Position numbers and translations under genes: made by a program | Source: Salinirussus salinus | GTDB taxonomy: Archaea > Halobacteriota > Halobacteria > Halobacteriales > Haloarculaceae | Assembly: GCF_009831455.1 (NCBI RefSeq) | Contig: NZ_WOWO01000001.1 | Coordinates: 558,001 to 622,000 of the forward strand | Direction of reading: 5' to 3' | DNA: 64,000 bases | Notes under the pieces: generated by a model | The model's database searches: none | What the model saw: the letters and a program-made list of their open reading frames with translations, nothing else | Told to the model about the DNA's origin: nothing | Shown here: piece after piece, positions 9,593-29,951 of the stretch | How positions within the stretch are numbered: the stretch's first letter is position 1 | How the letters are laid out: each line of letters begins with the position of its first letter

Positions 9593-9699
9593 CGGCCCGG
9601 CAGTCGGCTCCGGCGGCAGCCGCTCGGCAGGGTTGGGACTACGCCGCCGCTCGTGTGGAACATCCGTCGCGACACGACGCCGTCTGAAACAGATCCGGG

Positions 9700-10116
9700 T
9701 CAGCGAACGACGATGACCGTAACCGGAGAACGCCGGACGACGTTCTCGGCGACGTTCCCGAGCAACACGCGGGAGACGCCCTCCCGGCCGTGACTTCCGA
9801 CGACGATCTCCGACACGTCGTGTTCCTCCGCGAACGAAACGATCTCCCTGGAGGGCTTGCCGACGACGGTCTCGACCCGGAACTCCACGTCCTCCGTCTC
9901 CAGCACCGCTTTGAGGTCCTCGGACAGCTCGGTCGTCTTCTCGTGTTGCATCTCTTTGAGCCGCTCCTGGATCATATCCAGCCCCGCCTCGATCATCCCG
10001 TCGGCCGCTTCGATGACCCGCAACAGAACGATCTCCTCCCCGTCAGCGGCTTTGATCGCACGCTTTACCGCTTTCTGTGCCGGGTGGGACCCGTCGTAGG
10101 CCACGAGGATCGACAT
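9700..10116 (-). CDS. universal stress protein (UspA family)
   Basis: This 138-residue single-domain UspA protein begins MSILVAYDGSHPAQKAVKRA. The ATP-binding G-x2-G-x9-G(S/T) motif is near its end: VVGSHGREGVSRVLLGNVAENVVRRSPVTV. A charged coiled stretch (MIQERLKEMQHEKTTELSEDLK) fills the middle. Family members bind ATP or act in stress survival. The ATG at 10116 is the first that gives the canonical N-terminus; the frame stays open upstream without homology. It is a single gene convergent with DUF420. Confidence 0.9.
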   Translation of the reverse strand: MSILVAYDGSHPAQKAVKRAIKAADGEEIVLLRVIEAADGMIEAGLDMIQERLKEMQHEKTTELSEDLKAVLETEDVEFRVETVVGKPSREIVSFAEEHDVSEIVVGSHGREGVSRVLLGNVAENVVRRSPVTVIVVR

Positions 10117-10187
10117 ACGACTACTCGACGCCGGGCGAAAATAAACCCCGCCTCTTGCCGGATCGCCGTCCGACTTCGGGGCCCCGT

Positions 10188-10949
10188 TCAGTCGGTGGTC
10201 GGCAGCGCGCGCGCCCCGACCGCCAGCGCCAGCACGGCCAGCACGGCGAGCACCGCCAGCATCGTCGCGGGGTCGCCGACGCCCGTCCCGTCGCCGGTGT
10301 AGGTGACCGCGCGCACCCCCCGCGAGAAGTAGGTCAGCGGCGACAGCTCCGTGGGCAGCCACGCGGGCAGGAGACTCCGCGGAACGAACGTCTCGGAGAG
10401 AAAGAGCAGCGGGAGCGCGACGGTGTTGCTCGCCGCGATCACGCCGTCCTGGGAGTCGGCGAGCGCGCCCAGCAGTGCCCCCACCCCACAGAACAGCGCG
10501 ACGCCGAGGACGACGAAGGGCACGAGCAGGGCAAGTGTCGGCGAGAGGGGAAGCGAGACGCCCGTGAGGCCGACAAGCAGCCCCAGAAGCAGGAGGCCGG
10601 CCGCGCCGATGACGGCGACGTTGACGAGCGTGCCGGCGAGCAGCCACTCGACCCGCGAGAGCGGCGTCGTCGCCAGCTTCTCGAAGCGGTTGCCCTCGCG
10701 GTGGCGGGCTACCTCGCTGCCCACCCGCGAGAGCGGCGTGAACAGCACCACCACGGCCAGATACCCCGGCACGTACCAGCCCGCGGGCTCCGCGAAGAGC
10801 CCGCCCGCCGCCTGCGCCTGCACGAGCACGCCGAAGATGAGGACGACCAGGAAGGGAAAGACGAAGGTGAAGAAGACGGCGGTGCGCCGGCGGAGGAAAC
10901 TCCGCGAGGCGGCGACGAACTCCCCGCGGACCCGTCCGAGCCGGCTCAC
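10188..10949 (-). CDS. ABC-2 type transporter permease
   Basis: This 253-residue membrane protein of six hydrophobic segments has an ABC2_membrane layout: an N-terminal cytoplasmic helix (FVAASRSFLRRRTAVFF), a loop with a REGNRFEKLATTPLSRVEWLLAG coupling-helix motif, and a C-terminal YFSRGVRAVTY. It pairs with the ATPase gene upstream, whose last 4 bp it overlaps. The substrate is unknown. Similar pairs beside ctaB and coxB genes in haloarchaea resemble the NosFY type linked to copper or heme-copper oxidase assembly; here that link rests on neighbourhood only. Confidence 0.88.
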   Translation of the reverse strand: MSRLGRVRGEFVAASRSFLRRRTAVFFTFVFPFLVVLIFGVLVQAQAAGGLFAEPAGWYVPGYLAVVVLFTPLSRVGSEVARHREGNRFEKLATTPLSRVEWLLAGTLVNVAVIGAAGLLLLGLLVGLTGVSLPLSPTLALLVPFVVLGVALFCGVGALLGALADSQDGVIAASNTVALPLLFLSETFVPRSLLPAWLPTELSPLTYFSRGVRAVTYTGDGTGVGDPATMLAVLAVLAVLALAVGARALPTTD

Positions 10950-14545: not shown

Positions 14546-15757
14546 CTAGGTCTTTGAGTTGGGATACTTAGTCCCCGCGTTTCCGCCCGTCTCCGGAGCC
14601 GGTGTCCCCTCGCCTCCGGCCTCCTCTTCCAGGACGGCCGCGACGGGGTCCTCGCCCTCCCCGACGGTCACGGTGTGGCCCGCCCCCCGGGGCAGCGCTC
14701 CCGCCTGGACCCGCTCGCGGGCCACCTCGCTGCCCGGCCCGCCGGTGTCGACACAGACGTCGGCCTCCCCGAGCAGCCGGTCGAGGTCCTCCGTCACCGC
14801 GGGGGCCGTCGGGTCGCCGAATGCAGGGACGGTGACGACCGGACAGTCAAGCCCGCGTGCCGCCTCCGCGGCGGCGTCACCCTCGGGGACGGGCCCGAGA
14901 CTCACGGTACAGCCGGCCCGCCAGAGCGCGCTCACCGCCCGGGCCCCGGCCCGGCCGCCGCCGGCGACGTGGACCCGCAGGCCCCGCTCGGGGCGGTCCC
15001 GCAGCGCCGTCACGGTTGGGGCTCCGGTCGCGGGGTCGACCTCCACGGCGGCGGCCGTCCCGAAGACGGCCTCGAGAGCGTCCGCGGTGAGCACCTCCGC
15101 GGGCGGCCCGGCGGCACGGATCTCCCCGCCCGAGAGCAGGCAGACCCGGTCACAGAAGCGGGCCGCCAGGTCGAGGTCGTGGATGGCCGCCAGCGCCGTC
15201 CGGCCCTCGCTCACCAGGTCGGCGACGAGGCCGAGCATCCGGACCTGGTGGTCGATGTCGAGGCTGGCAGTGGGCTCGTCGAGCAGCAGGGCGGGGGTCT
15301 CCTGCGCGAGCGCGCGGGCGAGCAGGACGCGGCGGCGTTCGCCGCCGCTGAGCGAGCCGATGTCGCGGTCGCGAAACCGGGCGACGCCGGTCCGCTCCAT
15401 CGCTCGCTCGACGGCGTCGCTCCCGTCGGACCAGTCCAGCCGGGAGCGGTGTGGCGTCCGCCCCATCTCGACGACCCGCTCGACGGTGAAGTCGAAGGCG
15501 ACCGAGCCGTCCTGTGGCACCGTGGCCACCAGCCGGCTGACCGCCTCGGAGGCGGTCTCGGCGACCGGCCGGCCGTCCAGGGTGACGGCTCCACCGTCCG
15601 GTTCGAGCACGCCGTTGATACACCGCAGCAGGGTCGTCTTCCCGGCGCCGTTCGGGCCGACGAGGCCGACGAACTCCCCGTCCCCGACGCGGAGAGTCAC
15701 ACCCTCCAGCACCTCGGTCCCTCCGAGCGCGAGTTCGACCCCCTCGGCGCGGATCAC
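14546..15757 (-). CDS. btuD: cobalamin ABC transporter ATP-binding protein, with extra C-terminal Rossmann-like domain
   Basis: Residues about 1-250 form the ATPase of a FecCD-type importer: Walker [10 protein letters not shown] (about 34-42), signature LSGGERRRV, Walker B ALLLDEPT and switch His in AAIHDLDL. Residues about 270-390 are an added domain beginning [16 protein letters not shown], a glycine-rich Rossmann loop, with CPVVTVPAF further on. Long BtuD proteins of about 400 residues are usual in haloarchaea. The GTG at 15757 overlaps the permease stop (GTGA, 15754-15757) and fixes the start. B12 specificity follows from the neighbouring BtuF-like and BtuC-like genes and is probable, not proven; heme or siderophore import is the alternative. 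Confidence 0.88.
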
Positions 15758-16854
15758 AGCGCGTGCACCTCCCGCTTGCGCAGCAGGTAGAGGAAGAAGG
15801 GGGCGCCCACCGCGGCGGTGACGATGCCGACGGGCAGTTGTTCGGGGCCGGCGCGGGCGAGCGTGTCCGCGAGCACGAGGAAGGTCGCGCCACCGAGCGC
15901 GCTCGCGGGCAGGAGCACGCGGTGGTCCGGCCCGACGAGCAGGCGCATGATATGAGGGACCACGAGGCCGACGAAGCCGATGACGCCCGCGACCGCGACC
16001 CCGGCTGCGGTGACGACGCTGGCGGCCGCAAGCAGCAGCCGCTTGGTCCGTTCGACCTCGACGCCCAGCGTGTGGGCGTCCTCCTCGCCGAGCAGGAGCG
16101 TGTTCATCTCGCGTGCGTACGTGAGCAGGAGGACGAAGCCGAGCACGGCGACCGGCAGCGTCGCGCCCACCTCCCCCCAGGTGGTGTTGTAGAGGTGCCC
16201 CATCAGCCAGAGCACGGCCTGTTCGAGGCTGTCGCCGGACTGCAGGAGGAGATAGGAGATGACCGCACCCAGAAGCGTCTGGACGGCGACGCCGGCCAGT
16301 AGGAGGGTGGCGACGGGGGTCCGGCCGCCCTCGCTTGCGATCAGGTAGACCGCGAAGGCGGTGACGAGCGCGCCGACGAAGGCGGCCGTCTGGAGTCCGA
16401 ACGGGAGGGACAGCGGCAGGGCGATTGTCGCCACCGCACCCACGGCAGCGCCCGAGGAGACGCCGATGATCGAGGGGTCGGCCATCGGGTTCCGGAAGAA
16501 GCCCTGCATGACGGTGCCCGCGGCCGCCAGCGAGAAGCCCACCACGGCCGCCAGCGCGATCCGCGGGAGCCGCAGGCTCCGGACGATCGTCTCCGCGCTC
16601 CCGTCGACCTGGAAGTCGAAGAGGTAGGTGTACTGCAGGTCGACGGTCGGGAACGGCATACTGAGGGTGCCCACGCCCGCGGCGGCGGTGTTGAGGTCGA
16701 CACCCGTCGGTATCCCGACCGCGTTCAGGCTGGCCCTGGCGACCGTTCCCGGCGCGAGCGCGACCGGCCCGACCATCGCGCTCCCGACGACCGCGACACA
16801 CAGCGCGCCGAGCAACCCGGCCGACCAGGCGGCGGCGCGAGCAGTGGTCCGCAT
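15754..16854 (-). CDS. btuC: cobalamin ABC transporter permease (FecCD family)
   Basis: This 366-residue permease has about ten hydrophobic segments and the FecCD/BtuC signatures [34 protein letters not shown], with the conserved RLPR and the N-P-(L/M)-A-(D/E)-P loop, and later [17 protein letters not shown] with the cytoplasmic coupling region. It is transcribed away from btuF, with 60 bp between the two starts. A CCTAAAG box lies about 20-26 bp before its ATG, which suggests a near-leaderless transcript. Its last bases overlap btuD, so the ATPase is co-translated. Confidence 0.9.
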
Positions 16855-16914
16855 CTCTCAGCAACTCCGATTGCTTTAGGCAAATATTTGTTGCATAAGT
16901 CCGACCGGGTGGGT
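16855..16914. promoter_or_regulatory. bidirectional btuF / btuC promoter with central palindrome
   Basis: Only 60 bp separate the divergent starts. The perfect palindrome CAAATATTTG is at 16881-16890, and outer arms GCAAC (16861-16865) and GTTGC (16890-16894) form a wider dyad. A TTGCATAAG box (16890-16898) could serve btuF, and a CCTAAAG box read on the other strand (about 16874-16880) could serve btuC. One operator could therefore switch both directions together. No riboswitch fits in so short a gap. Confidence 0.5.
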
Positions 16915-18135
16915 ATGCGGCGCACACTGGTCGCGGTCGTGGCGCTGGCACTCCTGGTGCCGGCGGCCGCGGGCCCCGCGACGGCGGGCGGAGTCGTACA
17001 GGCAGCCGGCGACGCGCCGGTTTCACAGCAGGGCGGCGTGGACTGTTCGTTCCCGGTCTCGGTGACCGACGCGACGGGTCAGACGGTCACCGTCCAGCAG
17101 GAACCGGACCGGGCGGTGGCGCTGCAGGCGAGTGCCGCCCAGACGATGTGGGAGGTCGGCGCCCGGGGGAAGGTCGTCGGGATGCCGGTGCGGCCGTACA
17201 CGGCCTACCTGAACGGCTCGACCGAGCGGACGGGCGTCCTCGCGGAGGACGGCAGCGTCGTCCAGGAGCAGGTCGTCGCGCTCGAGCCGGACCTGGTGCT
17301 GGCGCCGAACGCGCTGCTCGCGCCCAACGAGACCGTCGAGAGCCTCCGGCAGTCGGGGCTGACGGTGTACCACTTCCGGCAGGCCAACTCGCTGGAGTAC
17401 GTCTACGAGAAGACCCGGACGACCGGGCTGCTGGTCGGCGAATACAACAACGCCTCCCGGCGCGCCGCGGAGATGGAGGCGACCGTCGAGGCCGTCCGGG
17501 ATGCAGTCGCCGACGAAGAGAACCCCCGGGTGCTCTACCTGCTCGGCCCGAGCGGCTTCGCCGCGGGGTCGAACACCTTCATCGGTGAACTGGTCGCGGC
17601 CGCGGGCGGGAACAACGTCGCCGGCGAACTCGAGGGCGGGTACAGCGTTGTCAGCGGCGAGACGGTCGTCGCCGAGGACCCCGAGTGGATCGTCGTCCCC
17701 GAGGGACGGGAACTGCCCAAGACCGACGCGATAAACGGGACCACGGCGGTCCAGGAGGGGCAGGTCCTGCGGGTCAACGACGACTTCCTGAACCAGCCCG
17801 GCCCGCGCAACACGGAGCCGCTGAAGGCGATGGCTCAGGCCTTCCACCCCGAGGCCTACGCGGCGGCGAACGTCGAGAACCCGGAACTGCCGTCGTACCC
17901 GACCTGTGAGGCCGACAGCGGGACGCCGACGGACGCCGGCGGTGACGGCGGCACGGGGACGGCCACTGCCACCGCGACGGCGAGCGACGCGACAGCCGGC
18001 GACGACACCGGGCCGGATGGCACCGACGAACCCGCGACGACGCCCGGCGCGGGCAGCCCGGGCTACACGGTCGTGACGGCGCTGGTGGCACTGCTCTCTG
18101 TGCTCGGGGCGGGCGCGCTCCGCGGGCAGGACTGA
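16915..18135 (+). CDS. btuF: cobalamin-binding substrate-binding lipoprotein/anchored protein BtuF-like
   Basis: This 406-residue exported solute-binding protein has an N-terminal Sec signal (MRRTLVAVVALALLVPAAAG). The periplasmic-binding type III fold follows, with DATGQTVTVQQEPDRAVALQASAAQTMWEVGARGKVVGMP. A Thr/Ala/Asp-rich stalk (TATATATASDATAGDDT) leads to a C-terminal SPGYTVVTALVALLSVLGAGALRGQD-like tail, which is a PGF-CTERM-type sorting signal with its helix and short charged end. There is no lipobox Cys, so anchoring would be by the archaeosortase route. The ATG at 16915 gives a clean signal peptide. It is divergent from btuC-btuD and supplies the ligand to them. Confidence 0.88.
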   Translation: MRRTLVAVVALALLVPAAAGPATAGGVVQAAGDAPVSQQGGVDCSFPVSVTDATGQTVTVQQEPDRAVALQASAAQTMWEVGARGKVVGMPVRPYTAYLNGSTERTGVLAEDGSVVQEQVVALEPDLVLAPNALLAPNETVESLRQSGLTVYHFRQANSLEYVYEKTRTTGLLVGEYNNASRRAAEMEATVEAVRDAVADEENPRVLYLLGPSGFAAGSNTFIGELVAAAGGNNVAGELEGGYSVVSGETVVAEDPEWIVVPEGRELPKTDAINGTTAVQEGQVLRVNDDFLNQPGPRNTEPLKAMAQAFHPEAYAAANVENPELPSYPTCEADSGTPTDAGGDGGTGTATATATASDATAGDDTGPDGTDEPATTPGAGSPGYTVVTALVALLSVLGAGALRGQD

Positions 18136-19992: not shown

Positions 19993-20877
19993 ATGAGTAC
20001 ACTCGAACACGAGGAGCCCGAGACGGAGACCGAGACCGAGACCGAACCGGAGTTCGACCAGGAGGGGGCCGTCGGGGCCGCCCGGGCCCTGGAGGAGTCC
20101 TACGGCGAGGAGCGCGCCCGCCGGGTCGACGAGGACCTGGAGGACGCCGACGAGATAGTCGAGCTGAAGGTGTTCCGCTACGACCCCGAGGTCGCGGGCA
20201 AGGAGGAGCCCCGCTTCGACTCCTTCCTCGTCCCCTTCCACAAGGGGATGACGGTGCTCGACGCGCTGATCTACGCCCGGGACTACTACGACTCCTCGCT
20301 CACGTTCAGACACTCCTGCCAGCAGGCCGTCTGTGGCTCGGACGCGCTGTTCGTCAACGGGCGCCAGCGGCTGGGCTGTAAGACCCAGCTCGCGGACCTC
20401 GAGGACCCGGTGCGGATCGAACCGCTCCCCCACCAGGAGGTCGTCAAGGACCTCGTGGTCGACATGGAGCACTTCTACGAGCAGATGCATGCGGTCGAGC
20501 CGTTCTTCGACCCCGACGACCTGCCCGAGGGCGAACTCGAGGAGCAACGGCAGTCACCCGAGAACCGCGAGAAGGTCAAACTCTCGACGCGGTGTATCTG
20601 GTGTGGCGCCTGCATGTCCTCCTGTAACATCGCCGCCGGCGACAACCAGTATCTCGGCCCCGCGGCGATCAACAAGGCCTACCGCTTCGCGATGGACGAA
20701 CGCGAGGGCGAAGACCGCAAGCAGGAACGCCTTCGGATCATCGAGCAGGAACACGGCGTCTGGCGGTGCCAGACCCAGTTCTCCTGCACCGAGGTCTGCC
20801 CGAAGGACATCCCGCTGACCGAGCACATCCAGGAGCTCAAGCGGGAGTCGGTGAAGAACAACCTCAAATTCTGGTGA
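19993..20877 (+). CDS. sdhB: succinate dehydrogenase iron-sulfur subunit (SdhB)
   Basis: This 294-residue subunit passes electrons from the flavin to the quinone. It has a haloarchaeal acidic N-tail with Glu-Thr repeats (about residues 7-20). A [2Fe-2S] ferredoxin domain carries CQQAVCGSDALF ... LGC, where Asp replaces the third Cys as in E. coli SdhB. The [4Fe-4S] motif is CIWCGACMSSC, and the [3Fe-4S]/[4Fe-4S] motif is CQTQFSCTEVCPKDIP. It is complete and should be functional. The catalytic subunit SdhA is normally the next gene but lies 7.2 kb downstream. Confidence 0.95.
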   Translation: MSTLEHEEPETETETETEPEFDQEGAVGAARALEESYGEERARRVDEDLEDADEIVELKVFRYDPEVAGKEEPRFDSFLVPFHKGMTVLDALIYARDYYDSSLTFRHSCQQAVCGSDALFVNGRQRLGCKTQLADLEDPVRIEPLPHQEVVKDLVVDMEHFYEQMHAVEPFFDPDDLPEGELEEQRQSPENREKVKLSTRCIWCGACMSSCNIAAGDNQYLGPAAINKAYRFAMDEREGEDRKQERLRIIEQEHGVWRCQTQFSCTEVCPKDIPLTEHIQELKRESVKNNLKFW

Positions 20878-21124
20878 TTTCGGGTTCGCGTGCGTCGGTC
20901 GGGCGACAGTACGTGCGGGATACGACACGTGGCGGTCCGACGCATGAGGGTCTGCCAGCGCAGCCGTTTCCCGGCAGCGAGCGGATAACTCTCGTCTTCG
21001 GTGACCGTCTCGGCTTGCGGTGGCGCTATCACGGATCCGGGACCGGACCCGAGGCTGCACCTTCCTGTTCGAGCTTATCCGCGACGGCTTACTGACCGAA
21101 GCAGTGGAGTCGCGCCCCGCGTGC

Positions 21125-23302
21125 CTAGCCACGGAAGCCGAGCAACCGGAGGCCGTTCAGGGACACGAGAACCGTCGAGCCTTCGTGGCCGACGACGGCG
21201 AGGGGGAGCGGGATCCCCTGGAGCAGGATCGTGCCGACCATGAGCGCGATCGCACCGAACGCGATGGCGAGATTGACGGTGAGCGTCCGCCGGGTCTTGC
21301 GCCCGAGACCGAGGACGTAGGGGATCTTGCTGAGGTCGTCGCCCATCAGTACCACGTCGGCAGTGTCGAGCGCGACGTCGGTGCCCGCCCCGCCCATCGC
21401 CACACCCAGCGTCGCGGTCGCGAGTGCCGGTGCGTCGTTGACGCCGTCGCCGACCATTGCCACGTTCTCGTGTCGGTCGACCAGGTCTTCGATAGTCGCC
21501 ACTTTCTCCTCCGGCAGCAGCTCCGCCTGGACTTCGTCGATGCCGACTTCGTCGGCGATCCGCTCGGCGACGCGCTCGTTGTCGCCGGTCAGCATGACGA
21601 TGTGTTCCACGCCGAGCGAGCGGAGGTCTGCGATCATCTCGGCAGCCCCAGGGCGAACGGTGTCGGTGAACGCGAGCCACCCCGACACGGTGACTTCGTC
21701 CCGACCCTCCCGGACGACGATGACGCCCGTTTTGCCCTCCGATTCCAGCGCTTGCAGTCGGTCGAGGCCGGGTTCGATCCCCTCGATAGCGGTGTCTTCA
21801 AGCACGGTTCGAAAGTAACTCCGGTTTCCGATGTGGACGGTGCTGTCTTCGACTTCAGCCCGGACTCCCTTCCCGGCGACTGACTGAAACCGCTGTGCCT
21901 CGGGGACGTCGAGTGACCGCTCTTCGGCCGCCGCCACCGTCGCACGAGCGAGGTGATGCTCCGAGCGGGCCTGCACCGCGGCCGCGAGCGAGAGCAGGCC
22001 GTCGTCGGTCAGTGCTCCGTCTGCCTTCTCGCGGACGAGGACATCGGTCAACCGCGTATCGCCCCGGGTGAGCGTCCCCGTCTTGTCGAACGCGACCGCG
22101 TCGATATTCGCTGCCGCCTCGACGTGTTCGCCGCCCTTGAACAGGACGCCCTGCCTGCCGCCGGAGGCGATCGCCGACAGGACAGCCGCGGGCGTCGAGA
22201 TGATGACCGCACACGGCGACGCCGCGACCATCAGCGTCATCGCACGGTAAAACGCGCTCGTGAACTCGCTCCCGAGCGCCAGCGGAACAGCGATAGCCGC
22301 GACCGTGAGCGCGAACACGCCCAGGACGTACGGCTGTTCGAGGCGGTCGATGAGCCGCTGTGTCGGCGCCTTCTCGCTCTGGGCGCGCTCGACCATGTGG
22401 ATGAGGCGGCTGATCGCCGACTCGTGAGCCTGCCGCGTGACTTCGATTTCGAGGCTTCCGCTTTCGTTGATCGTCCCGCCGAACACCTCGTCGCCGGGCG
22501 CTTTCGGGACGGGCACGGACTCGCCGGTGAGCGAGGCCTGGTCGACCGTGCCCTCGCCGGACGTGACCACGCCGTCGAGCGGGATCTTGTCGCCGGGGCG
22601 GACGACGAACACGTCGCCGACGGCGACCTCGTCGATGGGGACGGTGACTTCCTCCCCAGCGCGCAGCACCTGCGCTTCGTCCGGCCGCATCTCGACGAGG
22701 GACTTGATCGCCCGGCGCGAGCGGCCGATCGCGTAGTGCTGGAGCGTGTTCGACAGCGAGAACAGGAACAGGAGCATCGCACCCTCGAACGGCGCCCCGA
22801 TCGAGAGGGCCCCCAGCGCGGCGACGATCATCAAGAGGTCGATATCGACCGCGCCCGTGCGGAGCGTCTCGACCGCGCCTTTGAGACCGTACCAGCCGCC
22901 GAAGGCGTACGCGACGCCGTAACCGGCCCACACGAGCGGGAGCGGGCCGTCGAACAATCCTGTGACCAGGCCAGTCACCATCCCGAACAGCGTCAGACCG
23001 ACGAACACCGCCTCCCGCCTGAGTTCCGAGCGGGAACTCACGCTATCGGTGTCCGCCTCGGGGTCGTCCCGGACCGAGACACCCCGGTCGCGGACTGCGT
23101 CCCGGATCGTTTCTTCGGTTGTGACTTCACCGTCGTAGGTGACCCGGACACTCCCCGTCCGGAAGGAGACGTCGACGTCGTGGACGCCCGGGACCCTCTC
23201 GAGGTGTCGCTCGAGTGCCCGCCTGCCCGCCTCGCCACGGCCACCCCGCCGTTCGATGCGGACAGTACACGTCGACAGCGCGGGGGACTCAGTAACGGCC
23301 AC
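21125..23302 (-). CDS. heavy-metal P-type ATPase, P1B-4-like (SPC motif)
   Basis: This 725-residue metal pump has an N-terminal ferredoxin-like HMA domain (about 8-75) that lacks the usual C-x-x-C. Membrane helices follow from about residue 100, then an actuator loop SLTGESVPVPKAPGDEV and the membrane metal site A-S-P-C-A in place of C-P-C. Also present are the phosphorylation site DKTGTLT, TGDN, the hinge GDGVNDAPAL, and HEGSTVLVSLNGLRLL in the last helix. SPC plus HEGS/T places it in P1B-4, whose members export Co, Zn, Cd or Fe. The substrate here is not determined. It follows the Usp gene on the same strand within the block that separates sdhB from sdhA. Confidence 0.93.
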   Translation of the reverse strand: MAVTESPALSTCTVRIERRGGRGEAGRRALERHLERVPGVHDVDVSFRTGSVRVTYDGEVTTEETIRDAVRDRGVSVRDDPEADTDSVSSRSELRREAVFVGLTLFGMVTGLVTGLFDGPLPLVWAGYGVAYAFGGWYGLKGAVETLRTGAVDIDLLMIVAALGALSIGAPFEGAMLLFLFSLSNTLQHYAIGRSRRAIKSLVEMRPDEAQVLRAGEEVTVPIDEVAVGDVFVVRPGDKIPLDGVVTSGEGTVDQASLTGESVPVPKAPGDEVFGGTINESGSLEIEVTRQAHESAISRLIHMVERAQSEKAPTQRLIDRLEQPYVLGVFALTVAAIAVPLALGSEFTSAFYRAMTLMVAASPCAVIISTPAAVLSAIASGGRQGVLFKGGEHVEAAANIDAVAFDKTGTLTRGDTRLTDVLVREKADGALTDDGLLSLAAAVQARSEHHLARATVAAAEERSLDVPEAQRFQSVAGKGVRAEVEDSTVHIGNRSYFRTVLEDTAIEGIEPGLDRLQALESEGKTGVIVVREGRDEVTVSGWLAFTDTVRPGAAEMIADLRSLGVEHIVMLTGDNERVAERIADEVGIDEVQAELLPEEKVATIEDLVDRHENVAMVGDGVNDAPALATATLGVAMGGAGTDVALDTADVVLMGDDLSKIPYVLGLGRKTRRTLTVNLAIAFGAIALMVGTILLQGIPLPLAVVGHEGSTVLVSLNGLRLLGFRG

Positions 23303-23392
23303 GTTCTCTACCCCACTGAGTTGCCAGGGCTTGGCGTGTCGGAGACGCCAACGGGTCCGCCACCGATACGGACTCCGTCCGGTCTGACCGAG

Positions 23393-23821
23393 TCATCCGA
23401 TTATCGTCACCGGGATCCGTGCTCGACGAGTGACCGTCTCGGCAACGCTTCCGAGGAGCGTCCGGTCGATCCCCGAGCGACCGTGACTCCCCATGACGAT
23501 CTGATCGATGCCGTGTTCGTCAGCGTATTCGAGGATCGCTCGTGCCGGTCTGCCGACTTCTGTGGCAGTACCGAGGTCGATACCGTGTTCTGCCGCGAGA
23601 TCCGTGGCCGTCGCGTGGATGCTGGATGCGCGCTCTCTGGCGTTATCGTACCAGTCCCTGGCGACTGGCAAGCCGCCAGCCTCCACATCGATCACCGAGT
23701 CGACCGGATCGATGACGTAAATCGCAGTGAGGGTTGCATCCGGGAAGTTCTCGATAGCGTACGCGAGCGCACGCTCGGAGAGCGGCGACCCGTCGAAGGC
23801 GACGAGAACGTTGTCAGGCAT
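23393..23821 (-). CDS. universal stress protein (UspA family)
   Basis: This 142-residue UspA domain begins MPDNVLVAFDGSPLSERALAYA and ends VMGSHGRSGIDRTLLGSVAETVTRRARIPVTIIG. It keeps the full G-x2-G-x9-G-S nucleotide-binding motif. It is 90 bp upstream of the metal ATPase gene on the same strand, so both may share a transcript. Usp and metal-pump pairs are a recurring accessory combination. It is distinct from the Usp at 9700-10116 and not a recent duplicate. Confidence 0.9.
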   Translation of the reverse strand: MPDNVLVAFDGSPLSERALAYAIENFPDATLTAIYVIDPVDSVIDVEAGGLPVARDWYDNARERASSIHATATDLAAEHGIDLGTATEVGRPARAILEYADEHGIDQIVMGSHGRSGIDRTLLGSVAETVTRRARIPVTIIG

Positions 23822-23897
23822 ACGAAACGATTCGGTGCGGGCCGGGAAGAGTGTGCTGCCCAGAACACCGCGGCGCTCGACCGGATAGTACGCGACC

Positions 23898-24119
23898 GTG
23901 ATACCGGGACTGGTCAGCGCCTACGCCCACCGCGAACGGGCGCTGCTGATGGGCGCGCTCAGCGACCCCGGCGACGCGACGGCACTCGCGGAGGGGATCC
24001 GGACCCTGGTCGATTCCCCGGGACTGAGAACCGAGACCGCGGAGAGCGGACACGAGCGAGCAGCGGACTTCTCTCTCGGAAGCATAACTGACGCATATCT
24101 CCGGTTGTACAACCGATAA
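23898..24119 (+). pseudogene. C-terminal stump of a family-4/1 glycosyltransferase
   Basis: Only about 73 residues are open, and the frame is closed by TAG just upstream (23886-23888). The segment ALSDPGDATALAEGIRTLVD, then GHERAADFSLGSITDAYLRLYNR, matches the usual last 55 residues of GT-B glycosyltransferases (compare the intact gene ending at 38212). The N-terminal acceptor domain and nucleotide-sugar site are absent, so it cannot act. The Usp gene on the other strand now occupies the place of the missing part. It is the scar of a deletion or insertion within the sdhB-sdhA interval. The rest of 23822-24258 holds nothing else recognisable. Confidence 0.7.
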
Positions 24120-24258
24120 CGGTCCGGGCGGCGAGGGCGGTCGACCTCCGTTTCCGGAGATGCCGGCCCAGTCTCCGCGCGCCGGGGTCCTGGTTTGCGA
24201 TACCCGCTGGGCTACTCGCCGGTCCGAAACCTGTCGTCTGGCCGCGGGTCCTGACCCG

Positions 24259-26184
24259 TTATCCCTTCTGTCCGATGTCTACAGTGAGCGCAAACGTCAC
24301 GTCCCGCGTCGGGTCGGCGTCGGTGTTGATGCTCAGGCTCTCGCTGGTGAGGTCCGAGACCCACCAGTGACTCGCTGCACCGAGCGGTCCCGTCGGCGTC
24401 ACTGTCACGTCGACCGGATCCGGGGCCGCGAACAGCGGTACCGGATAGCTCCAGGACGTGGAGGTCGACCCGCTCGGTACCGTCGCCGTCCCCTCGGCGT
24501 AGGTCCGGGCCAGCCGGCTGCCGTCGGGGCTGGTGCCGTCGAAGAGGTAGTTGTCCTCGATAACCCAGTCGCGCGTGAACGCGGTGTCGAGTTCCTCAGG
24601 GTCGCCGACGTCGAACCCGACGTTTCCACGGACGACCGCGGGGTTCGTGCCGGATTTCATCTCGTATCCGATGTTGGCGCCCCTGACGGTGTTCCCTTCG
24701 ACCAGCAGCCCTGTCCGGGTTCCGTCGAGTAACACGCCCCTGACGAGCCGTTCGCTTCCGCCGACCACCGTGTTGCTCGAGACCTCCGTCGCGTCCTCGG
24801 CTTTTATTCCGTTTGCAGGCCAGTCCGCTACGGTGTTGTTCCGGATCCCGACCCCCGTCCCTGCACTGTCTCGTACCTGGATGGCACCGGGGCCGGCCCC
24901 CGGGGAACTGTGCCCGAGACAGATGTTGGACTCGACCGCACACGCGACAGTCTCCCTGCCGTCGGCAGACTGTGTGTTGTCTACCGAAACGTGCCGGGAG
25001 GTCGGTGCCCGGGAAACGTTCCAGAAGACGCCGCAGGCATCGCAGGCACCGTCCAGAACGAGATTCCACTCGCAGCCTTCGACGATGTTCCCGGCTATCA
25101 ACCCGTCGGTGCAGTTTTGCGCGCCCGTCACGTCGTTCCCCCAGAACTGGACGCCCGAGTCCGCTCCACCCCTGACGTAGTTGCCGACGAGACGCAGTCG
25201 CTCCCCTCCGAACGAGGCGATACCGGCCGCATCCTCCCCGTTTACGTCGACGCCGAGACTCCGACAGATGGACTCGTTTTGTTCCCTGTCGTAGGTGACT
25301 GCTGTCGCGATATCGCTGCCGCCCGACCCCCACGGACCGCCGCCCGACTCCGCCTTGAGCACTGACTGGAACGGCGTCTTGCCGACGAACGCCCGCCCCT
25401 TCCGGTCGACCGATTCGGACACGAGGTACGTCCCGGACGGGAAGAACACCACGTCACCGACGCCGACGGCATCGCGGGCCGCGCGGACCGCCGACGTGTC
25501 GTCGGTCTCGCCATCACCCGCGGCTCCGTGGGCCGTCACGTCGGCGTGAGGGCGGCGTCCGGTACGCTGCTCGCCGGCGCGGAGCGCGCCACCGACCGCC
25601 GCACTGTCGGGCGTGTACAGGCCGAGGCTGTCGGACGAGCCCGCGACACCCTTGACGCCCGCCCCGCCGGGGGCGTCGGTGTAGCCCTCGACGCCGGCTG
25701 CCGCGCCCGAGGTCGCGGTGGCCCGGCCGAACACACCCGCCCCGTCCGGGGAGTCCACTTCACCGTGTACCCCGCGTGTCCACCCCGAGCCAGCGCGCGC
25801 GTATCCGTACAGCCCGCGCCCACGCTCGGAGTCGCTGACGCCTTTGACACCGATCGTCGGCCCGGAGTCGGCGGGCGTGTACCCGAACACCCCCTTGCCC
25901 TGTGAGGAGTTGGCGATCCCCTGGATAGCCTTCGTCCAGCCGTCGGCGGACGAAGCGCGGGCGAACAGGGCCGTCGCGCCGTCGGCCTGGGACACCGCAC
26001 GCAGTGCGTGTGTGGTGTCCCCCGTGACGTTGATCTCGAGGCCGAAGTCGGCGGCGGGGTCGCCCTTCCAGGTTTCCCCGAGGTGGTCGCCGTCCGCGGC
26101 CGCGGTCTGAGCGCTCGCACCGGTGACCAGGCCCAGCAGACCTATCGACTGCAGGAGCCGGCGTCGCGAAGGAGAGCCTCCCAT
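24259..26184 (-). CDS. Tat-exported right-handed beta-helix protein (pectate-lyase-3-like)
   Basis: This 641-residue protein has a Tat signal with SRRRLLQ near its N-terminus. Residues about 50-200 hold imperfect repeats of the type GV-G / VFGxA / GLYGYA / GVEGYT with about 22-27 residues per unit. Then comes a pectate-lyase-3/tail-spike entry motif, DVTAHGAAGDGETDDTSAVRAARDA with FFPSGTYLVS. Beta-helix coils full of Asn and Gly follow, and a C-terminal beta domain. It should act outside the cell on or in polysaccharide; no catalytic residues can be assigned. The ATG at 26184 is preferred over a GTG at 26196 because GAGGGTGA at 26191-26198 is spaced as a ribosome-binding site for the ATG. Confidence 0.75.
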   Translation of the reverse strand: MGGSPSRRRLLQSIGLLGLVTGASAQTAAADGDHLGETWKGDPAADFGLEINVTGDTTHALRAVSQADGATALFARASSADGWTKAIQGIANSSQGKGVFGYTPADSGPTIGVKGVSDSERGRGLYGYARAGSGWTRGVHGEVDSPDGAGVFGRATATSGAAAGVEGYTDAPGGAGVKGVAGSSDSLGLYTPDSAAVGGALRAGEQRTGRRPHADVTAHGAAGDGETDDTSAVRAARDAVGVGDVVFFPSGTYLVSESVDRKGRAFVGKTPFQSVLKAESGGGPWGSGGSDIATAVTYDREQNESICRSLGVDVNGEDAAGIASFGGERLRLVGNYVRGGADSGVQFWGNDVTGAQNCTDGLIAGNIVEGCEWNLVLDGACDACGVFWNVSRAPTSRHVSVDNTQSADGRETVACAVESNICLGHSSPGAGPGAIQVRDSAGTGVGIRNNTVADWPANGIKAEDATEVSSNTVVGGSERLVRGVLLDGTRTGLLVEGNTVRGANIGYEMKSGTNPAVVRGNVGFDVGDPEELDTAFTRDWVIEDNYLFDGTSPDGSRLARTYAEGTATVPSGSTSTSWSYPVPLFAAPDPVDVTVTPTGPLGAASHWWVSDLTSESLSINTDADPTRDVTFALTVDIGQKG

Positions 26185-26443
26185 CGGTGTAGTCACCCTC
26201 AGAAAATGTCACGAATATCTTCTAACTATTTGGCACTTACATCGCGGTTTCCGTGACCTGGCGGTTCGTCGGGAATCCCCTCGTGTGGCGTCATAAGTGA
26301 CGGTTACCGGGCCGCAGTCGACAACTGTCCGGTCACGGCGGCCGTTCGGTACGGAGCGGTCTCCGACGGACTACCCGGGTCCGCCGGCTTCCGGCGGCCC
26401 TCCGACAGCACGACGGCGAGAGGGACGGTGACGGAGCGCCGAC
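26185..26443. other. intergenic region upstream of the beta-helix gene
   Basis: This 259-bp gap follows the stop of the M20 peptidase gene (on the minus strand) and precedes the beta-helix start. It includes an A/T-rich patch (about 26210-26250), read on the minus strand as CCAAATAGTTAG, that can serve as the beta-helix promoter. The remainder (26260-26443) holds no gene or repeat that I can see. Confidence 0.5.
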
Positions 26444-27808
26444 TCACTCGCCCGGTTCCGGCCCACTCCCGCCTTCGTAGCCCTCCAGTACTTCGAACAG
26501 CCGGTCGGCTCCGAACTCGACGGCCTCGACGGGTACCCGCTCGTCGGCCGCGTGGATCGTCTCCATGAACGAGAAGTCCTCGGGCAGTTGCAGCGGCGTG
26601 TACCCGTAGGACTGGACGCCGACCCGCGAGAGGTGGCGGCCGTCGGTCCCGCCGGCCATGACGTACGGGACGGCGGTGGCCGTCGGGTCCGCGCGTTCGA
26701 GGGTGTCCGCGAGCAGGTCGAACAGACCCGCGTCGGTCTCGGAGGGGAACGCCTCGTAGCGGAGCGTCTCGAACGCGAACTCCACGTCGTCGGGGACCAG
26801 TTCGCGCAGTTCGCGCTCCAAGTCCTCGGCGGTCTGGCCGGGCAGCAGCCGGCAGTCGAGCGTCACCTCGACCTCGCCTGGGATGACGTTCTCCTTGTCG
26901 CCCCCGCGGACGACCGTCGGCGCGGCGGTGTTGTGGAGGATCGCGTCGAAGATCTCCCCCTCCGGGCCCAGCGCGTCGAGCGCCTCGTCCGTGCGCTCGG
27001 GGTCGAGCAGGTCCCGCACCAGCGCTTCGGTCTCCCCGTCGAGTTCGGCCGCGACGGCCTCGACCATCTCCTCGACGGGCGGGATGACGTGGACGGGCAG
27101 CCGGGAGCCGGCGATGGCGTCGACCGCGCGGGCCATGTCGGCCATCGCGCCGCCGTCGCCGGGCATCGAGGCGTGGCCCGCGGGCCCGGAGAAGGTGAGC
27201 TTCGACCAGCAGATCGCCTTCTCGTTCATCTGGACGGGGTAGAACCGCTCGCCGGCGATGGTCATCGGGAAGCCGCCGAACTCCCCGAGGGCGTACTCGA
27301 CGTCCGCGAACAGTTCGGGATGCTGCTCGACCATGTACGCGGCGCCCTCGTCGCCGCCGGCTTCCTCGTCGGAGAGGACCATCACCATCAGGTCGCCGGC
27401 GAGGTCGACGTCCTCGCGTGCGGCCCGCAGCGCAGCGGCCAGCAGCATCGCCACGCCGCCTTTCATGTCCAGCGTCCCGCGGCCCCAGACGAAGCCGTCC
27501 TCCACCACGGCGTCGAAGGGCGGGTAGGTCCAGTCCTGTCCCTCCGTCGGGACGACGTCGACGTGGCCGTACAGCAAAAGCGGCGGGGCGGGACCGTCGC
27601 CGGGCAGCCGGGCGACGAGGTTCGGGCGGTCCGGGTCGCTGGCGTAGGTCTCGGTCTCGAAGCCGGCGGCGTCGAGCAGCCGTTCGGTCCACTCGACGCA
27701 GGCGCGCTCGTTGCCCGGGGGGTTGGTGGTGTCGAAGCGGACGAGCCCCTGGAGCAGCGTCACGGGGTCGTCGGCGAGGCCGGGGTCAGGGTCCGGAATC
27801 TCTCCCAT
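26444..27808 (-). CDS. M20 family metallopeptidase (ArgE/DapE/Acy1-like)
   Basis: This 454-residue di-zinc hydrolase has the first metal motif LLLYGHVDVVP (His-x-Asp), then RGTLDMKGG with the bridging Asp, SDEEAGGDEGA with the catalytic Glu-Glu, and a late His in GGTDGRHLS. A dimerisation lid starts near SKLTFSGPAGHASMPGDGG. The family deacylates amino-acid derivatives or cleaves dipeptides; the exact substrate is unknown. The start MGEIPDPDPGL at 27808 suits the family. The frame extends 47 codons upstream with no homology. It is the last gene before sdhA and is divergent from it. Confidence 0.88.
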   Translation of the reverse strand: MGEIPDPDPGLADDPVTLLQGLVRFDTTNPPGNERACVEWTERLLDAAGFETETYASDPDRPNLVARLPGDGPAPPLLLYGHVDVVPTEGQDWTYPPFDAVVEDGFVWGRGTLDMKGGVAMLLAAALRAAREDVDLAGDLMVMVLSDEEAGGDEGAAYMVEQHPELFADVEYALGEFGGFPMTIAGERFYPVQMNEKAICWSKLTFSGPAGHASMPGDGGAMADMARAVDAIAGSRLPVHVIPPVEEMVEAVAAELDGETEALVRDLLDPERTDEALDALGPEGEIFDAILHNTAAPTVVRGGDKENVIPGEVEVTLDCRLLPGQTAEDLERELRELVPDDVEFAFETLRYEAFPSETDAGLFDLLADTLERADPTATAVPYVMAGGTDGRHLSRVGVQSYGYTPLQLPEDFSFMETIHAADERVPVEAVEFGADRLFEVLEGYEGGSGPEPGE

Positions 27809-28100
27809 GGCTTTTCCCGGCCCGAGAGTTCCAAAAGCGTTCGGGTGGGTCCGCAGCGACGACCCGGCGACGCCGTCAGCCGCGGCGCCGACAGCGTGGT
27901 GAAGGCCCTCGATATCGGGGGCCGGTGGCCGGGAAGACGCCGGAAGCATTTACTTTCCGTAGACCGGAGACGGAGGTACGACCGAGCGCGGGCACGCGAG
28001 CGCGAGGGGGTTCGAGGCGTCGTCGGGGCGCCGACGGGTCCCGCAGTGCCGCCGGGCCCGCAACCGGAACCATTAGAACACTCCAGTCAACCCTTCAACT
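27809..28100. promoter_or_regulatory. divergent gap between M20 peptidase and sdhA, with sdhA promoter
   Basis: The 292-bp gap has a CATTTACTTTCC patch (about 27946-27957) and a CCATTAGAAC box about 25-30 bp before the sdhA ATG at 28101. The second is a plausible TATA element giving sdhA a promoter of its own, which it would need once separated from sdhCDB. No gene is seen in the gap. Confidence 0.4.
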
Positions 28101-29951
28101 ATGTACGAACACGACGTCATCGTGGTCGGCGCGGGCGGCGCCGGGCTGCGCGCGGCGATCGCGGCACACGAAGAGGGAGCGGACGTCGCGCTTGTGACCA
28201 AGCTCCACCCGGTGCGCAGCCACACCGGGGCTGCCGAGGGCGGGATCAACGCCGCCCTCCACGAGGAGGACTCCTGGGAACTGCACGCCTACGACACGAT
28301 GAAGGGGTCGGACTACCTCGGCGACGCCCCCGCCATCGACACCTTCGCCCAGGACGCCCCCGACGAGGTCATCCAGCTCGAACACTGGGGGATGCCCTTC
28401 TCCCGCGAGGAGGACGGCAAGGTCTCCCAGCGCCCCTTCGGCGGCCTCTCCTTCCCGCGGACGACCTACGCCGGCGCCGAGACCGGCCACCACCTCCTCC
28501 ACACGATGTACGAGCAGGTGGTCAAGCGGGGGATCGAGGTCTACGACGAGTGGTACGTCACGGACCTGGCGGTCACCGACCACGACGACCCCGAGGACAG
28601 GGTCTGTTACGGCTGTGCCGCCTACGACATCAAGACCGGCGAGGTCGCTGGCTTCCACGCACGGGACGGGGTCATCCTGGCCACCGGCGGCCCGGGACAG
28701 GTCTACGACCACACGACCAACGCCATCGCCAACACCGGCGACGGGCCGGCGATGGCCTACCGGGCAGGTGTCCCGCTGGAGGACATGGAGTTCGTCCAGT
28801 TCCACCCCACCACGCTGCCCTCGACGGGCGTCCTGATCAGCGAGGGCGTCCGCGGCGAGGGCGGGATCCTCTACAACGGCGAGGAGGAGCGGTTCATGTT
28901 CGAGCACGGCTACGCCAACAACGAGGGCGAACTCGCCTCGCGTGACGTGGTCTCCCGCGCGGAGCTGACGGAGGTCAACGAGGGGCGGGGCATCGAGGAC
29001 GAGTACGTCCACCTCGACATGCGCCACCTCGGCGAGGAGCGGATCATCGACCGCCTCGAGAACATCCTCCACCTCGCGGAGGACTTCGAGGGGGTCGACG
29101 GGCTGGACGAGCCGATGCCGGTCAAGCCCGGCCAGCACTACGAGATGGGTGGCATCGAGACCGACGAGAACGGCGAGACCTGCATCGAGGGGCTGTACGC
29201 CGCCGGGGAGTGCGCCTGCGTCTCGCTGCACGGCTCGAACCGGCTGGGGGGCAACGCCCTGCCCGAGCTGCTGGTCTTCGGCGCCCGCGCGGGCCACCAC
29301 GCCGCCGGCGGCGACATGGCCGAGGCGGAGATCCCGACCGGCCCCTCCGCGAGAAGCGAGGACGGCGCCGTCGACACGCCCGTCGAGCCCGGGGCAGTCG
29401 AGCCCGCGACCGGCGACACCGTCGCGGACGGCGGGGAGGTCCGGTCCGATGGGGGAGCTGTCGCAGCGGCCGAGGAGGTCGTCGAGCAGACCGTCACCCG
29501 GGAGCGCGAGCGCGTGGAGACCCTGCTCGAGGAGGACGGCATCAACCACGCCGAGGTCCGGGACGACATCCAGGAGACGATGACCGAGAACGTGAACGTC
29601 TTCCGGGAGGAGGACAACCTGAAGTCGGCCCTGGAGGACATCCGGCAGGCCCGCGAGGCCTACCAGGACGTCGCGGTCTCTGACCCCTCGCGGACGTTCA
29701 ACACCGACCTCATCCACACCATCGAGACCCGCAACGTCATCGACCTCGCGGAGGCGATCACGCTGGGTGCGCTGGCCCGCGAGGAGTTCCGCGGGGCCCA
29801 CTGGCGCAAGCAGTACCAGGAGCGCCGGGACGACGAGTGGCTCAAGCACACGATGCTCGAGTGGAACGGCGGCGACCCCGACCTCTACTACAAGCCGGTC
29901 ATCCTCGAGGGCGAGGAGAAGACCTACGAGCCGAAGGAACGCTCGTACTGA
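28101..29951 (+). CDS. sdhA: succinate dehydrogenase flavoprotein subunit (SdhA)
   Basis: SdhA oxidises succinate to fumarate with covalently bound FAD. The dinucleotide loop is VIVVGAGGAGLRAA (residues about 6-19). RSHTGAAEGGINAAL carries the flavin-linking His region, and the active-site HPTTLPSTG is near residue 234. The capping and FAD segments follow to GSNRLGGNALPELLVFG. A haloarchaeal acidic insertion occupies about residues 415-465, before the C-terminal helical domain. The 616-residue protein is intact. It is separated from sdhCDB by five unrelated loci, so stoichiometric expression would depend on two promoters. Confidence 0.95.
   Translation: MYEHDVIVVGAGGAGLRAAIAAHEEGADVALVTKLHPVRSHTGAAEGGINAALHEEDSWELHAYDTMKGSDYLGDAPAIDTFAQDAPDEVIQLEHWGMPFSREEDGKVSQRPFGGLSFPRTTYAGAETGHHLLHTMYEQVVKRGIEVYDEWYVTDLAVTDHDDPEDRVCYGCAAYDIKTGEVAGFHARDGVILATGGPGQVYDHTTNAIANTGDGPAMAYRAGVPLEDMEFVQFHPTTLPSTGVLISEGVRGEGGILYNGEEERFMFEHGYANNEGELASRDVVSRAELTEVNEGRGIEDEYVHLDMRHLGEERIIDRLENILHLAEDFEGVDGLDEPMPVKPGQHYEMGGIETDENGETCIEGLYAAGECACVSLHGSNRLGGNALPELLVFGARAGHHAAGGDMAEAEIPTGPSARSEDGAVDTPVEPGAVEPATGDTVADGGEVRSDGGAVAAAEEVVEQTVTRERERVETLLEEDGINHAEVRDDIQETMTENVNVFREEDNLKSALEDIRQAREAYQDVAVSDPSRTFNTDLIHTIETRNVIDLAEAITLGALAREEFRGAHWRKQYQERRDDEWLKHTMLEWNGGDPDLYYKPVILEGEEKTYEPKERSY

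Follow-up and report, generated by a model that had tools for sequence, protein, structure and literature searches.

Among the closest described systems are viral tailspikes, of which LKA1 gp49, a PF12708 phage protein, is described as an O-antigen lyase that is trimeric and has a C-terminal jelly-roll domain (PMC5701251). A PF12708 cap followed by a right-handed β-helix is common to LKA1 gp49, the phiAB6 tailspike, gp26 of Haloarcula tailed virus 3 (HATV-3) and the 641-residue protein considered here, which is encoded in a 64,000-nucleotide stretch of the Salinirussus salinus genome (the window); LKA1 gp49 resembles it also in a small C-terminal domain and in a polysaccharide target, which is presumed for the haloarchaeal protein. 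In contrast to the viral tailspikes, the gene is chromosomal, a Tat-like signal and a GVxG-repeat module replace the virion-binding part, and the likeness is strongest in the cap. The trimeric adhesins UspA1/YadA and the BclA/C1q fibre proteins share with it the plan of a stalk bearing a head, and such heads are carried by relatives of its N-terminal module (N-module), although the stalks of those proteins (coiled coil, collagen) and their export routes differ from those of the GVxG protein. Haloarchaeal Tat-GVxG proteins (loci L003, L004, L008 and L024/L038) have the same succession of signal, leader, array and GLYTP linker, but their head is a β-domain of ~110 residues rather than a β-helix. 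The nearest β-helix, 43% identical and likewise haloarchaeal, belongs to a lipoprotein of genome G162 (L002), which differs in having a lipobox (by eye) in place of the GVxG array, in lacking the C-terminal domain and in lying near nucleotide-sugar genes. We give about an even chance to the reading that the gene encodes a host-made, exported, probably trimeric spike of modular build that acts on polysaccharide and is tailspike-like in its working.

Layout of the gene and the N-terminal repeat

The open reading frame was confirmed on the minus strand (ATG at 26184, stop 24259-24261), and its product is divided as listed in Table 1. GC at codon positions 1/2/3 is 0.67/0.57/0.83, compared with 0.72-0.96 at position 3 in four neighbours, and the overall GC is local, on which ground a recent foreign insertion by composition was rejected. 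At the N-terminus a Tat-like SRRRLLQ motif and a hydrophobic stretch were read by eye. As the first cysteine is residue 307 there is no lipobox, and no membrane-type segment follows the signal in 19-residue windows (maximum mean hydropathy 0.99), so that the lack of a visible anchor, described in an earlier note on this DNA, is borne out by cysteine positions and hydropathy. The small C-terminal domain (565-641) is absent from that note.

Table 1. Features of the GVxG/β-helix gene and its 641-residue product, in positions of the window
Feature	Position	Strand	Basis
Complete gene (641 aa), from Tat-like signal through GVxG array and PF12708 β-helix to C-terminal domain	24259..26184	-	
Tat-like signal peptide, residues 1-30, SRRRLLQ...ASAQTAAA, without lipobox Cys	26095..26184	-	By eye, Cys positions, hydropathy
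Conserved leader of N-module, residues 31-56, GDHLGETWxGDP	26017..26094	-	Alignment
GVxG array, residues ~57-192, period 26 built of 12- and 14-residue rungs	25609..26016	-	
Linker GLYTPDSA, residues 188-195, kept at array end in close relatives	25600..25623	-	Alignment
Right-handed β-helix, residues ~216-561; PF12708 cap 216-282, Beta_helix match 435-528	24502..25539	-	
Small C-terminal domain, residues 565-641, resembling the C-terminus of a Vibrio phage hypothetical protein	24262..24492	-	

All six repeat strings quoted in the note are found in the translation. The GVxG rungs alternate between 12 and 14 residues (14+12 = 26), the first of them being degenerate, and they follow signal and leader, which together occupy residues 1-56. 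Over residues 91-195 identity at lag 26 reaches 0.41, whereas 2000 shuffles gave no more than 0.25 at any lag from 5 to 44; over residues 31-205 it is 0.28, with a shuffle maximum of 0.20. As the shuffle maximum is exceeded, the repeat is not due to chance. An N-module profile from which this protein was left out gives it 120 bits, compared with 0.5 for the reversed sequence and 1.4 for the best of 200 shuffles, and this score together with the lag-26 identity led us to reject the view that the region is just a low-complexity run.

By this profile score the N-module is a distinct family. It has no match in Pfam, NCBIfam or PDB, the alignments to kinesin chains in the PDB being chance, and a literature search of limited range brought up no title that deals with a GVxG spike, or a Tat-exported one, from haloarchaea. 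AlphaFold models from two-row alignments were of low quality: the full-length model (pLDDT 35) is too weak for a statement on fold or oligomer, and the N-module model (pLDDT 62, pTM 0.57), in which regularly spaced strands are drawn, is of low confidence and gave nothing at E ≤ 0.001 in Foldseek searches of PDB and BFVD.

Relatives of the N-module and their heads

The full leader (GDHLGxxWxGDP), array and GLYTP linker of the haloarchaeal Tat-GVxG family are present in this protein, which is 39-45% identical to L003, L004, L008 and L024/L038 over the N-module, the five-row alignment having 28 invariant positions. The N-module profile matched 5 of the 292 genomes drawn from the class and 1 of the 246 drawn from the phylum (the window's own), and the linker pattern occurs in 3 of 292 genomes. 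When the whole protein was the query, matches were obtained in 19 of 292 genomes and, within the family, in 12 of 146, partly through the cap only. Among genome contigs the module was found in one locus, L038, from a Halobacteriales MAG, whose protein is identical to that of L024. Weaker arrays are present in L025, L013, L027, L035, L036 and P0003, which score 32-81 bits compared with at most 8.9 for reversed or shuffled versions (200 shuffles each); those of L035 and L013 have a heavy composition bias, and in L036 and P0003, where a spacing of 12/14 is not conspicuous, the assignment rests on the profile score only.

The array is reused with other heads. In L003, L004, L008 and L038 the head is the β-domain of ~110 residues; in L025, whose N-terminus is cut by the contig end, it is a C1q domain (PF00386, 1.8e-6, over the cut-off); and L035 ends in a C1q/BclA_C-like region below both cut-offs. 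P0003 bears a UspA1-like roll (3.9e-19 to 3pr7), which also matches the Grass antifreeze roll model at its cut-off, and L036 an SpdA-like phosphodiesterase head (40.8 bits, far under the 400-bit cut-off). In L027, whose C-terminus is cut, an Mtd_N-like part (below cut-off) stands before the array, and this protein may be a viral fibre; it had no match among phages. PDB matches of L025 to chains labelled WD-40 repeat only (E 0.002-0.007) were set aside, and a match of the L038 C-terminal domain to two phages (E 0.6-0.7) was taken as chance. Since by eye a Tat signal is missing from L027, L036 and P0003, the GVxG array is not tied to Tat export. Among the best few candidates scored per genome in the searched sets of 292 and 146 genomes, no second protein joins array and β-helix. 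What is new here is the N-module, which is uncatalogued, and the variety of heads attached to it.

Three of the four β-domain relatives examined lie in surface-glycan loci (G165, G050, G161). In the G165 locus Pfam confirms a sulfatase, a dTDP-sugar epimerase, a nucleotidyl transferase and a dehydratase/epimerase, the remaining genes of the three loci having been read by eye from ORF starts. The gene of L038/L024 lies elsewhere, near gyrase-like and glycosyltransferase-like genes (by eye), so that a surface-glycan location is not a strict mark of the Tat-GVxG family.

Several further features of these loci were observed. One surface-polysaccharide locus (L152, G165) encodes three GVxG proteins with three different heads (3488-5242, 9622-10569 and 15565-17499), two of them without a signal peptide by eye. 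In L013, L035 and L008 a long, possibly coiled-coil stretch (by eye) precedes the twin-arginine motif. Also by eye, L010, L018, L019 and L027 share an N-terminal part (HGxxxxxxGxxxWxxxxNxxF, followed by ATDTGxxYxGxGxxW) that precedes PF12708 helices or a GVxG array; some of these four may be proviral because of the Mtd_N-like match in L027 (below cut-off) and the strong tail-spike PHROG matches of L010.

Genomic setting and the β-helix

The gene sits between a universal stress protein (Usp) and an M20 peptidase, and the seven neighbours that were typed (SdhA-type, SdhB-type, P-type ATPase, Usp, M20 peptidase, regulator and HAD hydrolase) are all ordinary cell genes, with none for virion parts, sugar uptake, degradation or a surface-glycan locus among them. 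In the window (20877-28101) sdhB and sdhA are ~7.2 kb apart, split by the minus-strand P-type ATPase, Usp, this gene and the M20 peptidase; sdhB lies at most 1.5 kb from sdhA in 13 of 21 other orthologous loci and farther away in 8. In the sole congener compared (G379, a genome 78% complete; L150, 1971-9390) sdhA adjoins the M20 peptidase, followed by aldolase-, phosphatase- and dehydrogenase-like genes (by eye). The gene is probably accessory, as it is missing from the matching place in this one congener.

The pectate-lyase-3 β-helix that the earlier note placed after the repeats is present, with a PF12708 match in the cap (E 3.4e-12, 47.1 bits, cut-off 27) and a match to Beta_helix (PF13229) farther along that scores 24.9 bits, just below the cut-off of 25.9. 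No NCBIfam model scores over its cut-off for the 641-residue protein. A profile of this helix together with that of L002, run against 392 genomes of the order, has matches at E ≤ 1e-15 in 2, namely the window's own and G162. The two helices are identical at 150 of 364 residues, E317, D318, E372, D378 and H398 being among the shared ones, and in this pair of sequences D (16/29), N (12/19), H (3/4) and W (4/6) are kept above the overall rate, whereas E (8/21) and R (7/26) are not. A second PF12708-like protein (a 644-aa frame) is encoded in the same genome on another contig (G000:C2:25457-25759, locus L125).

PF12708-type caps in cellular proteins occur in glucanases, a polysaccharide lyase, C5 epimerases and adhesins. 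Two readings without a viral element have to be weighed. According to the first, the protein is an ordinary secreted lyase or hydrolase that degrades polysaccharide for feeding, a monomer in which the array serves as spacer or carbohydrate-binding stretch. The enzymes among these cap-bearing proteins speak for it, as do the Tat-exported, anchor-free polysaccharide lyases (PL8 enzymes) reported in haloarchaea (PMC13260240). We nevertheless consider it rather unlikely, as the C1q-like and UspA1-like heads of N-module relatives are non-enzymes and genes for sugar uptake or degradation are lacking among the seven typed neighbours. According to the second reading, the protein is a non-catalytic adhesin or matrix component whose β-helix only binds sugars or other cells. 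This is consistent with the C1q and UspA1 heads of relatives, which are binding domains, and with helix-profile matches to 3zpp (labelled cell wall surface anchor protein) and 4mr0 (plasmin- and fibronectin-binding protein A), but the preferential retention of D, H, N and W between the two β-helices, although based on two sequences only, hints at a cleft, and we hold this reading to be slightly less probable still.

Kinship with viral spikes and a proposed working

The comparison with tail spikes made in the earlier note holds for the helix, which lies in a superfamily that holds viral tail spikes. Tail-spike families are among the PHROG matches, the best of which is phrog_2234 (tail spike, 1.2e-7), whose best stretch, residues 289-486, lies beyond the cap; in the cap region the phiAB6 tailspike matches the profile of the helix (7e-5), and the alignment with a PF12708 protein of Pseudomonas phage GP100 covers 157 profile columns (probability 91). 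With L002 as query 78 phage records are found at E ≤ 0.1, including HATV-3 gp26, annotated as a tailspike (85% aligned, 27.6% identity, E 1e-3). A comparison with haloarchaeal virus proteins, as that note had suggested, yields a weak match, HATV-3 gp26 being 24% identical to this protein (single-comparison E 4e-6), with a profile comparison that is confident over 57 cap columns only. The fold kinship between the β-helix and viral spikes, judged from these alignments, is real, centred on the cap and reaching into the helix in places.

Over the small C-terminal domain identity is 28% (E 0.01) to the very end of a Vibrio phage protein of 675 residues, which is annotated as hypothetical and has a faint PF12708 match below the cut-off; the whole 641-residue protein finds one phage match, from Vibrio and in this domain, at E 0.3. 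A profile of the domain gave two further weak matches in 194 haloarchaeal genomes (L122, 4.7e-4; L123, 6.3e-4, with an internal stop). Its PDB matches to MS2 coat and oxysterol-binding chains were taken as chance.

A broad scan of viral contigs for the cap returned at least 600 stretches, at least 167 of them encoding a relative; the 80 best were retained, and in most of these the similarity is confined to the cap. Neither the array module nor the C-terminal domain is present in these best 80 of at least 167 viral loci with a PF12708-type cap. Three open frames in the 80 loci with at least four GVxG-like strings were discarded by eye, none having an N-module profile match: in L110 the strings belong to a collagen-like GATG run, in L096 four are scattered over a PF12708-type protein, and L069 is probably not a gene. 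Pattern-based scans of viral contigs with the protein, the N-module, the β-helix pair and the C-terminal domain confirmed no relative, the N-module was not found in phage records (a result weakened by low-complexity masking in BLAST), and plasmids gave no match at E ≤ 0.01. The GVxG module was thus found only in genome assemblies, some loci of which may be proviral.

These results bear on a third reading, compatible with the preferred one, in which the β-helix and C-terminal domain of a tailed virus were captured by the host and fused to a host export-and-stalk module. The phrog_2234 match beyond the cap, the long GP100 alignment, the relation of HATV-3 gp26 to L002 and more weakly to this protein, and the resemblance of the C-terminal domain to that of the Vibrio phage protein point in this direction, as does the C1q-like end of L035, which is 38.7% identical over 89 residues to a tail protein of Vibrio phage D69 (E 4e-3). 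Against it, caps from haloarchaeal genomes come closest, at 64% and 62% identity over ~45 residues compared with 58% for the best viral cap among the matches listed, and the genome protein L010 aligns with the helix profile over 241 columns compared with the 57 of HATV-3, although L010 may itself be viral in origin because it matches tail-spike PHROGs at 9e-19. The nearest β-helix, that of L002, is likewise in a haloarchaeal genome, ~6 kb from a UDP-glucose/GDP-mannose dehydrogenase and a nucleotidyl transferase; a mobile origin at G162 is conceivable because a Cdc6-like gene (by eye) lies within ~6 kb on the other side of L002. Further counterevidence is that none of the seven typed neighbours is viral, that the overall GC is local and that the C-terminal domain is missing from the 80 viral loci. 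To viral capture of the spike we assign a low probability. Of the earlier claim of a repurposed viral protein used by the host, the chromosomal gene, the export-type signal and the spike-like helix stand, whereas the searches of viral loci lend capture no support. We do not class the protein as a viral tailspike: virion genes are lacking among the seven typed neighbours, and at the N-terminus the virion-attachment domain is replaced by an export-type, Tat-like signal (by eye) and the GVxG module.

For the host-made spike that we favour, we infer export, trimer formation, substrate class, catalysis and final location as follows. The Tat signal would carry the folded protein out of the cell, where the GVxG array would form a β-rich stalk, probably a homotrimer, presenting the PF12708 right-handed β-helix. 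As C1q and UspA1/YadA heads, which are trimers, are found on relatives of the N-module, the stalk is by analogy likely to be trimeric too. The β-helix would bind, and probably cleave or epimerise, a surface or extracellular polysaccharide, and the small C-terminal domain may cap the trimer or add carbohydrate binding. LKA1 gp49 (PMC5701251) makes the tailspike comparison apt for this mode of working. The reading is further supported by the reuse of the module or array with other heads, by the surface-glycan loci of three β-domain relatives and the nucleotide-sugar genes near L002, and by the above-average retention of D, N, H and W. Against it, NCBIfam and PDB profile matches assign no catalytic residues, the PDB ones lying mainly in the cap and including the plasmin- and fibronectin-binding protein; E and R are not preferentially retained in the two helices compared; and this gene, like that of L038/L024, lies outside polysaccharide loci. 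A broader proposal, which we hold to be less likely than not, is that haloarchaea produce a range of exported trimeric spikes by joining a single GVxG stalk module to exchangeable heads (β-helix, C1q, UspA1-like roll, phosphodiesterase-like and β-domain). As cellular analogues of tail spikes and trimeric adhesins, such proteins would fold and assemble into trimers ahead of Tat export and then recognise or modify polysaccharide of the cell surface, possibly to counter competitors or viruses.

If true, the protein would represent an uncatalogued archaeal stalk module that displays different heads, one of them tailspike-like, and could serve as a test case for the construction of exported fibres by archaea, for their action on surface glycans, and for the sharing of spike components between cells and viruses.
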